64,000 nt of DNA from Candidula unifasciata (Eukaryota > Mollusca > Gastropoda > Stylommatophora > Geomitridae), in assembly GCA_905116865.2 (NCBI GenBank), contig CAJHNH020004602.1, forward strand, positions 1,360,495 through 1,424,494, in the 5' to 3' direction. Below the pieces are notes generated by a model that was given only the letters and a program-made list of their open reading frames with translations, did not search any database and had not been told where the DNA came from. How positions within the stretch are numbered: position 1 is the stretch's first letter; every line of letters begins with the position of its first letter. Of this stretch, positions 23,301 through 32,300 are shown piece by piece. The translations under genes and the position numbers were made by a program.

Positions 23301-26300
23301 TGAGTGTGGTGCTCAGATTTCAATGAAACCTATCTTAGTCATAAAGGTCTTCATAAGAAAAAAGTTCTGCCTCCAAAATAATGTTGACTAATGATGCTTT
23401 TCAAAGTCAACTACAAAATAATGTCGTCTAAGCAAAACAGTTCTAAAGTTTATGTTTGACACGGGTGTGTACCAGAAACGTTTTACTTATAAGTTATTAT
23501 TTAAACGTGGACAGTCGTAAAATCACGGTAACCACAACGTTTGGCTGATTCAAATAAAACAATAGATTCAGAGATGGAGACAAGGAGAGACGTAACGGTG
23601 AAACATCGCTTGCAGCCTCATGACAGCTGTGTGGAGGACTCGAAGGCTATTATCACCTACCAGATAGAGGAAGAGACAGGCGCACTCACACAGATATCTG
23701 TCTCTCCCAATAAGAATCATATCACAGCTAGAGTCGTCAGTTCTCCACATGATGTTGCCAGCAACGTCTACGGCTCCGAGTTCAGACTTGATAGGTCAGG
23801 AGTACCCGTGCCTAAACAGTACGAGCACATACCCACGTCTTATTACACCGGCGATGGGTTACCGAGTTTTGTGAACACACCTTTCGTTATCATGGGTAAA
23901 GAAATAAGACATCCAAAAGTGAAAGGCAGATTATGGGATCACCCGTTATCGGATACAGAAATTAATCAGCGCAAACAGCCTTCCGCTGAAGTCTATTATG
24001 TTCGAGGTCATCATCGGTCAGATGGAACATCTTCTCGAGACAAAGCTTCGGTTACATCTGGTGATTTCAAGACTGGAAAATACAGCAAGGCGGCTAGACC
24101 AAAGAATATAATTGACTCAGCGAAGTCTCATAAGCAGTCAGCATCTACAGAAAGTCATGGAAGCGACTACAACATATTGGAAGATAGATCTGTGAAGAAA
24201 GTAAAGCCAACAAAATTGACGACACAGATAAAAGATAAATTAGACACGATTTATAGAGACAGTGATAAAAGGTATAAGCATTTACCCTCGTCTGATCCAA
24301 GAGATGGTGAACTTAAGGGTCATGGCCCCACAGATAGACATGTTCTGTCCACGTTGTTAGATACTGTCCCCGGAACAGCCAGTGCCGACAGTAGCCGGAC
24401 CAGTCAAGAAAGCACAGGTCATAGAAAGACAAACCAGAAACACAAGAGACACCATCAGACAGATATGTTGCCGAGGTATGGCAGTTTAGATTCCATGAGT
24501 CAGTTCTATACACAACCTTTTTACCAGGGTAACCTTACAGACTGGAACACGGCACCGGATCCTGCAAATAGTAACGGTCAGTGTGCATATTTGGGTGACG
24601 ATGGTAGAGTATACTATCAAAACTGGGCTGGATATTATCCTTATAGTGATAATTATTGGACATATCCCAGTTGGAGATGTGACAGTGGCACCAGTCGTGT
24701 TCCGGGACATGGCGATTTAGGCGTGACTGCTATTACATCTGGTGACGATACTTCAGAAGAAGAAGTTGTGGAACGCGCAACTAAAGGAAAGATCAAAACA
24801 AAAGCACGAATGCTAGACCAGACAAAAAGTGACACTTTCAGACAACATAAGCAACATAACAACAACTTGAGAAAATCAGTTCCCTTACATACGCACAAAT
24901 CTCATAGAAGCAAGTTATATAAATCGGATGTACGTAGTCACCTGTCTGCAGAAAGCAAGGCGGGCAACCGACGATCTATGAAAGAGAGGTCATCAAACTA
25001 CACAGATGATCTAAAGGCTAGAGAGAAAGAAAGTAGAGATAGTTACTCAGACAAAAGCACATCTATAAACACGTCAGATCAACAGATGCGATACCAGAAT
25101 ACATCTTCAAACAATAAGAAACATGAACCGAAACGTCAACATAATGAAAACAGGATTGCCCCTCATCAGAGAATTATGGACAACAATTTTACTCTTTCTT
25201 CTGATCCTAATCCCGTTTCGGGTTTCCCACGCTCTGCTACTCCTGGTCACTTGGATCAGATTCTGGGGAACACAAACCTAAACCTTGCCACCATGAGAAG
25301 GTACTTGGATGCCATGAGCATGTCTCTGGCCAGCATCCCTACGTCAGGAAACTTCCAGCGACAAGTAGATCACACAGGAGACACGCTAGAAGATGTGGAG
25401 CATCTGGAGTTTTTCAAAAGCCCGAACCAGACTACGACTGATAAGAGAACTACGGGGTTACCACAATTTCCGGTTCCTGGCTATGCTAAAAGTGATAGAA
25501 AGAAGGATGAACAGAATGGCTTTACAACTTTGGATTCTTGCTCCGTCATTACTGATTATTTAGATGGTCCGTCTGACTGGAAAAAGAAGAATATCTCTTC
25601 TCTTCATAGTGGAAGAGATAGAACTTATGAGAAGCGTATGACTGCTGATATCTACCCCAGAAGTGCTGTAGAGTTGGAACAGCTGGAATCTCCAGTGGTA
25701 GGTTCCACCTCTGATAGAACTATCCATGAGACCGACGTAGGGCATGTTGTTAGAGCTACTGTACCGTGCACCAGTAACGTCACTAGTAACAATAGACGCC
25801 AACAGTCTCGGACGTCACGACTGCTGTCTTCGGCTAGCTCTGATTCTAGACAGTTACCTCTCATTAACTCATCGAAAATGCCAAAGAAAGACACGGCAAT
25901 TCAGACAGACTTTGACACTATCACCACCTCAAATGTAGCTTCTTTCTCACCGATGTACCCAGCTGGAAGCTCGAAATTTATCGACGGCGGTAATGTGTTG
26001 AACTCCCACCGGCTCACATCAATTGATAGCCGGTTAACATACTCTAAAATTATGCCTGAGAGATTTGCAAGCAACAATTTGTATTCAGAACCATACCACA
26101 GTGGGACCATTGGTGTGTCCGACAGCACCAATAACATCTCGTTAGATGTGCAACACGCCCAGGATATACCTCACAGAGACCATTCATCTTCCCGTTCCTT
26201 GGCTCCATCAGGCCCGGCGAGCGACATAAATGAAGACGACAGACCACGTGATATTGGGTACAGCGTGGCGACAGATAGGTTTTGGAGCACTGGCACTTTG

Positions 26301-29300: not shown

Positions 29301-32300
29301 AAAGTGGCTCTTTCGTTGCCAGCTGACTTTATCCTCCAATGCAGCATAGGTCTTGAGCCAAACCACACCTTCTTATTCTTCATCTCCATTCAGCGGCTAT
29401 AAACTCCGGTGGAAAGTCCTGGTTGTTCGTCCACTCCTGGACATTGGTCTTGTCCCAGAATTTGAGTATTGTGCGCACGCCCCTTTTACAGACCTGAATT
29501 ATTTGTATGTAGACGTTGGTTCATAGATTCTCGGGCAGATAAACTCTGACTTGAAGGAAACACTCCTAATTAGTAGCCTTATACGACAGGCTTCTTAGGC
29601 AAAAGTGGGCGTATTTATTTTTCCATCCGGAACCTTCACAAGAGCTCTCGTTTCCGTTTTTTTCCCATGCTTTTTTTAATGTGCTCCTACGAGTTCCACT
29701 GTAAAGACATTCTTGTTATATTGTTTTCCCAGCATGTGTCCTACTAAACGCCAGCGTCTTGTTTTCACTTCGTGAATCAAAAATAGGACGTAAATAGTTG
29801 AACTTTTTGCAATGTGATACGTTTAACTGGTACACGGCGTGACGGCACAAGGCTAATCTTATGCCGTATATTAACAAGCAGTAACGTGAGGTACACAGCA
29901 TTAAATCACACTGTGCCTGTTTGCTGGCGACTAGTTTCATTGGCGGGTGACACTGTGACAAATAACGTTTTTTTTTTTTTTAAAGTAAGTGACTATTTTC
30001 ATGCCATTGGCGCATCCAGCATATGATGCTAGGTAGCTTATTTTGAAGATTAATCAATGGATGATGATGATATCTACATTACGCCGACCACCTTTACATC
30101 ATGACTTTACCTGGCACACTTATAGGTTCTGCTGACCTGGGAGCCAGTATCATTATAATAAAAAGAAAAATCCGTATTCCCTTCCTGATTTCTCCTCTAT
30201 GCAACACTGCATGGCGTCCTGAACCAATGAATCCACTCATATCTGTATCATCCTTTCGCTGCTTTCACACATTTTTATATCACAGTAGAGGCCGACTCCA
30301 AAAACTTCTAACCATATTGCGTGCAGCCTTTTGCTTCCGTACCTTTCACTTCCGTACCTTTCACGCAGATGCGCACCGACTTCGATAGGACCGACGACGT
30401 TTTTTCAACACAGAACTGCAGTATACACAGGGCTGGTGTAGCTGTTACTGGTGCAATAATTATAACTTCTCTGGCGGTTGAACATGGTATCTGGGATTAG
30501 ACAGTCAGACATCAACATTGACATTTTCGTACCTCAGATGGTAAACCTTCAGGAAGCAGTCAGGAGAAAATGTAAATAAACTGGTCGATGTATTGGAACG
30601 TCGATCCTATCTACGGTGGACAGGCTCTCAGCCGTGAACCCATGTATACTACTATATTTTCCGTTTGTTAGGAACGCGCTTCGTAATGCCGGGGTACCAG
30701 GTTTGATCCTAGCTGTGGATGGTTTGTCTTGCGTTGGTTTGACAGTGGTACTGAGAGCTGACCGTTTAATGAGCAGTGGCAAACTACTGAACGTAAAATT
30801 TGCCTAGATAAAACACATCCACAGAAAAACAAACTCTGGGGTTGGTTCAGTGAGTCTTGTAAAGAATACACAACTGATGCTTTATGTTGAGGACATCATT
30901 AGTGGGGAGATTCTAATCTCACAAATTTATCTCACCTTCACGGACATGATTTCTCTATTTCAGGTATTCATGAAGGAAGCTTTCGAGCATAAACTCAACA
31001 CTGAAGCCATGAAGATTAGGCGTATCGCTGCCACTAAGCTACAGACACACATTCGTATGTTCCTGACTCGCAGACGTCTTTCTGGTCGGAACAGGAGTGC
31101 CCTGAAGATCCAACGGATGGTTCGCATGTGGAGGGCACGGTAAGAGTATGTCTTGTGTGTAAGCGTCAAGGCAGTCCCTTGGTAGCTGCTGCTGCTGTTG
31201 TCGTTTGAACTTCAAGCTTGCAGGACGAGATGGGATACACGCATTAAGAATTGTGTGGGTTGAAGTAACCAGATGGTTGAGACAAAGAGGGGGGTGGGGG
31301 ACAGAAGTCAGACAGACAGACAGGCAGACCGACAGACAGACCGACCGACAGACAGACAGACAGACAGACAGACAGACAGAAGACAGTCAGACGAAATTTT
31401 GACATGGATAAGTGAATTGTGAGTTAGCAACTGTTGGTTTAGTCAGTAGGAGTTAAAATAAGTGGTTAGGACATGAAGATTTGTTATTTTTGCCCTCACA
31501 TCATTGATGATTATACCATCAGGTGAATCCTTATCCCAATTGCATTTCTGGAATTCCTGTTTAGTTCCACACAGTTTTGGAATGTGTACACAACACTCAA
31601 GTTCTGCAAAGAAATCAAAGTACAGAAGTGGACGAACAAGCAGAACTTGTTTACCGCCGGTGACCGCGAAAAATCAAAATAATTGGTAGTTACTGTAGAC
31701 GAGTCTATCTTTCTTAGCTCACTGTAAGGGTGGGTGACAATTGTGTGGACATGTTGGGTAGTTTGTTTACCTCTTGGTGAAGCGTGCAAAGAGTTGACGG
31801 TATCAGACGAATCTTGCATCCGGCCAGGACAGGAGTAGATTATCCTACAGTCAGTATTCACGTGTATGAATTCTGTCGCCTACATCTGATAGCCACAGCG
31901 GCGTAGTGGCCCGATGACTGTCTGTCGGCCACAAAGTCCTAATTTCAAATCAGCACAAACCGATTTTCTTCTTCAAAATTGGCCTATGCTTCCAGGTCGA
32001 CCCAGCCTAAAATAGGTACCAGATAGTGTTTTGGGGAGTAAAGGCGGCCTTCATTATGTTCACTACCTGAGTGCTGATTGGTCTTTACAGTTCTGGTTTA
32101 GTGTCACGCGACCGATGCGCACGAAAAGAGTCCTTTACTTTTTAAGCATACATTTAGCATTGCTAGGTACAAGTAGTCGGCTTCTGGTTTAGCTGTTGCG
32201 AACGTACTTCATAATGTCGGAGTGCCAGGTTCGATCCCAGCTGCAGGCGATTTGACAGCAGACCGTTTTGTGTTAGTATCGACAGTGGTATCGAGAGCCG

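Follow-up and report, generated by a model that had tools for sequence, protein, structure and literature searches.

A giant open frame in the converter-neck intron of a Candidula unifasciata class XV myosin gene: candidate first exon of a motorless isoform

The window analysed was a 64,000-nucleotide stretch of the Candidula unifasciata genome (C4597:1360495-1424494, within a 1.34 Gb assembly). Genome-wide, 62 matches to the haemocyanin C-terminal domain PF14830, a molluscan domain, agree with this origin. By sequence comparison the plus-strand gene in the window encodes a myosin of class XV, a type of motor required for hearing in mammals. The 402 residues of the joined motor and neck exons were compared with the PDB, where myosin-XV was the top match (7udt, 400.7 bits) and the next classes were myosin-X (312.9 bits) and VIIa (303.2 bits). 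A working copy of human MYO15A was compared with the contig at E 0.1 and gave 14 aligned stretches, all in order, running from the P-loop exon, 7 kb upstream of the window, to 102 kb. The PDB match and the ordered alignments bear out the class XV assignment of the original prediction. The exons of this gene used below, all on the plus strand, were as follows.

13989-14112, plus strand: last motor exon (converter), phase-0 donor (K/GTAAAC), PDB best match myosin-XV
30964-31139, plus strand: first neck exon, IQ motifs, phase-0 acceptor TTTCAG, Pfam IQ E 5.6e-10
54135-54219, plus strand: next neck exon, assigned by eye
61227-62064, plus strand: stretch that includes the first of the class XV tail exons (LPVDIN...), followed at 61945-62064 by a weak match to MYO15A (E 0.033)

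A MyTH4 exon lies past the window end at 64159-64374 in window coordinates (C4597:1424653-1424868), and MyTH4-like exons occur again on the same strand, in two pieces, at ∼117.9-119.0 kb (C4597:1478428-1479535). The host gene tail was taken to hold two MyTH4 domains, membership of the second being assumed from order. Pfam FERM_M had no match on C4597 and 24 matches genome-wide, so a putative FERM domain rests on the MYO15A tail alignment. The 18 kb before the first recognised motor exon contained no frame longer than 204 codons. The neck is split by a 23 kb intron (31140-54134), which separates its first IQ-region exon from the one after it; on the minus strand at 34576-36381, between these two neck exons, two adjoining frames resemble, by eye, a LINE-type endonuclease and reverse transcriptase. 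Rfam and tRNA scans over the window found none.

Within the 16.9 kb converter-neck intron lies a giant frame on the plus strand. The frame is open over 23532-27881 (1450 codons), its first ATG at 23574 gives 1436 amino acids and it closes with TAG at 27882-27884, in agreement with the original prediction of an intact 1436-codon frame between 14112 and 30964. The runner-up within the surrounding 134 kb was a repetitive frame of 510 codons. No relative was detected in Pfam at E 1 or, by sequence, in the PDB at E 1. The frame and its flanks were divided as follows.

23229-23246, plus strand: possible promoter elements, ATTGG at 23229 and TATAAACC at 23239, from a motif scan only
23574-27836, plus strand: coding portion of the giant exon (1421 codons, ATG up to the phase-0 donor), aligned to the relative P0001 from M1 to H1421
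27837-27842, plus strand: splice donor GTAAGT (CAC/GTAAGT), best-scoring donor in the frame, its Val-Ser kept in P0001
27843-27884, plus strand: remainder of the frame with its TAG, interpreted as intronic; resemblance to P0001 at the level of shuffles

The 1421-residue head is rich in Ser, Thr and Asp and may be disordered, judging from composition. Residues 550-589 (25221-25340) form a motif that is well conserved in P0001 and partly in a paralogue on contig C6902 described below; this segment reads like a short helix. Residues 772-781 (25887-25916) are identical in P0001 and, by resemblance, are a putative dynein light chain (LC8) binding motif.

Three protein-set searches were performed, with the giant frame, with a profile of both sequences and with a C-terminal/IQ chimaera, each spanning proteins of 0.55 to 1.75 times the query length. 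The sole relative among the listed matches from 5.8 billion predicted proteins was P0001, a protein of 1505 amino acids on a 5982-base contig. P0001 is 51% identical to the giant exon over 100% of the exon. Identity per 100-residue block was 38-68% in 14/14 blocks, with 9/21 residues identical in the last piece. The window frame and P0001 have a common start methionine (METR/MDTR), the start of P0001 being a predicted one, and both proteins reach Glu-His and then Val-Ser. The C-terminal end of P0001 is its last predicted codon, be it a true stop or the contig end. The profile recovered no further relative among the 7993 best candidates scored.

GTAAGT at 27837 closes codon 1421 and is in phase with the IQ exon, both being phase 0, as had been predicted; the distance from donor to stop was counted as 15 codons and not 14. 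The donor had been called perfect, which holds for the intron side; on the exon side there is a C at -1. Splice sites were scored with an approximate frequency matrix, on which the donor reached 3.97, the highest score among the GTs of the frame and one that places it within the best 0.87% of the window's 4146 GTs. Seven donors of the myosin gene scored 1.07-8.25, two of them below this value. The plus strand of the window carries 16 GTAAGT, and 0.0035 were expected in 14 in-frame positions (0.019 for the looser GTRAG), consistent with the earlier view that chance is an unlikely source of this donor.

The 3′ boundary of conservation was examined by comparison with shuffled sequences. The 12 residues preceding the donor matched P0001 better than any shuffle (0/2000 as good), and the local similarity of the residues beyond Val-Ser was equalled by 767/2000 shuffles. 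Past H1421, P0001 reads 61 codons and the window 15 (59 vs 13 residues after Val-Ser). In a MAFFT alignment 5/15 post-donor residues were identical, Val-Ser included, which counts against a clean boundary. Since GTAAGT encodes Val-Ser, as does any GTNAGY donor in this phase, a retained donor explains the retained dipeptide. P0001 itself looks like genomic sequence read into an intron, its donor being inferred from the protein letters. The conserved protein stops at the donor and not at the TAG, from which we read the frame as a spliced coding exon; exon and donor are well supported.

An intact single-exon gene that ends at TAG 27884, with a coincidental donor, would explain why the frame ends in a stop, and a nested retrogene-like unit would be an ordinary thing. 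This reading is highly unlikely because conservation stops at the donor: the last codons carry no similarity beyond shuffles and P0001 reads 46 codons further. It would also require an in-frame GTAAGT so near the end, expected 0.0035 times, and a messenger with no polyadenylation hexamer for 2 kb. It had been claimed that no AATAAA or ATTAAA follows the stop; this was correct as far as 29899, and in a scan to 34000 hexamers were found at 29900, 30157 and 30575.

On the 5′ side of the giant exon no good phase-0 acceptor was found. The AG at ATG 23574 scored -10.25 and the best nearby phase-0 AG scored 0.08 at 23715, which is 47 codons inside the conserved start; seven acceptors from the myosin gene, used for comparison, scored 1.49 to 9.52. 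An in-frame stop lies 14 codons upstream of ATG 23574. ATTGG and TATAAACC are 345 and 335 bases upstream of the ATG and are motifs only, not evidence of use. As a good phase-0 acceptor is lacking, a first exon is likelier than an exon inserted between converter and neck. The giant exon is probably a first exon, judging by its splice signals and the ATG common with P0001, and its position, 5′ acceptor scores and common ATG agree with a private first exon that lies beyond the motor exons. The original prediction of an alternative first exon after the motor is supported by the same acceptor scores and ATG; its other option, an insertion between converter and neck, found no support, the 5′ acceptors being poor. 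All phases are 0, so inclusion of the giant exon would preserve the frame from 14112 to 30964, and an internal exon of a motor-bearing myosin could be read in this way. Such an exon would separate the lever arm from the converter, would have to use one of the poor acceptors above, and sits badly with the upstream stop and with an ATG common to P0001. It was rejected on the acceptor scores and the upstream stop, and we regard it as extremely unlikely.

The IQ exon at 30964 is the next known exon after the giant exon, on the same strand, in phase 0 and 3.1 kb downstream, and a junction from 27836 to 30964 is likely on sequence grounds. The chimaera across this junction gave no match at E 0.01 in the predicted-protein set. 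The IQ acceptor TTTCAG scored 5.04, and 6/172 AGs between 27860 and 31000 scored higher, the best being 28907 (score 8.15), which opens 23 codons. With six acceptor-like sites above the IQ acceptor, a private last exon is possible.

The giant frame was also searched against its own genome. Three matches were returned: the frame itself, one on contig C6902 (E 6.9e-4) and one at E 6.18 that was dropped as chance.

G000:C6902:303841-307500: second giant open frame, distant paralogue, open for at least 1220 codons; the 3′ end reads N

Direct comparison of the two frames gave blocks of 40 and 42 residues with 50% and 57% identity (E 3.1e-8 and 2.8e-10), and a reverse search with 694 residues of the C6902 frame recovered the frame of the window at E 7.9e-5. 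The C6902 frame is flanked by what look, by eye, to be CCDC97-like and AIMP2-like genes. A search of the 90 kb around it (7500 bases N) with the human MYO15A sequence returned 0 matches at E 1, and the same settings gave 19 matches on the class XV contig. Searching the same 90 kb with 7 neck and tail pieces of this myosin gave a best E of 0.11, an arginine run. No MyTH4 was matched on contig C6902 and no IQ was found near the frame. The giant-frame family thus seems, on these searches, to exist outside myosin.

As the C6902 member has no myosin exons found nearby, a separate nested gene stays a live alternative. Splicing at 27837 would then lead from the giant exon into at least one private exon with a separate polyadenylation site, and the myosin would be a mere host. 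The paralogous frame without a detected myosin tail fits such a gene, as do the six sites that outscore the IQ acceptor, with 28907 the best of them, and the hexamers at 29900, 30157 and 30575. It requires an unseen last exon where a known acceptor of the same strand and phase lies 3.1 kb downstream, and introns are assumed to contain many such acceptor-like sites and hexamers by chance. A nested gene that ends in a private exon is the main rival to a motorless isoform; we consider it rather unlikely.

In the reading towards which we lean, with some reserve, the class XV gene uses the giant frame as an alternative first exon with coding sequence, and joins it to the IQ exon to yield a motorless isoform. 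An internal promoter in the converter-neck intron would start a messenger upstream of 23574, translation would start at the conserved ATG, and codon 1421 would be spliced between 27836 and 27837 to the IQ exon at 30964 in phase 0. The product would lack a motor and consist of the unique 1421-residue head and an IQ-MyTH4 tail. We infer the internal promoter, the 27836/30964 junction and the function of the isoform. The product would most likely act as an anchored or competing tail, by analogy with the hypothesis for headless Myo10, and would bind light chains and cargo but not walk along actin. The unique head, again by analogy, may set the cellular place and partners of the non-walking tail. 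Taken as a whole, the earlier interpretation is partly supported.

A broader proposal, made more tentatively, is that the frames belong to a new molluscan protein family, giant and disordered, and that the class XV gene may have recruited one of its members to serve as an alternative head. The gene would then make a walking motor and a motorless scaffold (∼3000 residues, a guess) that share a tail. If true, the locus would supply a MyTH4 myosin with a naturally occurring tail-only competitor, and would point to an undescribed giant-protein family that has a paralogue at another place in the genome. The motorless isoform would be missed by gene models in which such exons are skipped. Myo10 and molluscan muscle myosin already have known motorless isoforms. 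A class XV example, its unique head exceeding a motor domain in size, would mean that the same strategy was arrived at once more, this time with new coding sequence.

Vertebrate MYO15A isoform 1 includes exon 2, a giant exon that carries a start codon of its own and encodes a large extension called disordered; exon 2 precedes the motor, the isoform protein retains the motor, and in mice the isoform carrying it goes to particular stereocilia (excerpts of PMC4592939). The giant exon described here follows the motor. Compared with the human MYO15A extension, the giant frame and P0001 showed no significant similarity (best E 1.3 for the frame and 0.097 for P0001), and kinship was not found. The parallel drawn in the original prediction holds for layout and fails for position and sequence. 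In Drosophila a short class XV isoform, Myo15-RE/PE, is detected by one tail antibody, and a second antibody detects three large Myo15 isoforms and not the short one (excerpts of PMC12237259). As far as these excerpts go, Myo15-RE/PE resembles the isoform proposed here in being a short class XV product. For molluscs, no class XV isoform of this kind was found among literature titles and abstract beginnings.

In several molluscs catchin (myorod) joins a unique N-terminal exon to the muscle myosin tail (excerpts of PMC4410989 and PMC3912159). To that extent it matches the present proposal in being molluscan, motorless and headed by a unique N-terminal exon. It differs in deriving from a muscle myosin with a coiled-coil rod, the likeness being one of layout, and its unique domain is far shorter than the 1421-residue head. 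In mouse Myo10, start sites within intron 19 produce an isoform from which most of the motor is missing (excerpts of PMC5725431 and PMC6345916). The private exon of headless Myo10 is untranslated and the protein begins at M644 of the gene's own sequence (excerpts of PMC5725431). On this account headless Myo10, from a MyTH4-FERM myosin, is comparable to the isoform proposed here, which would likewise come from a MyTH4 myosin gene, start internally and lack the motor; in the class XV gene, unlike Myo10, 1421 novel residues would be added.
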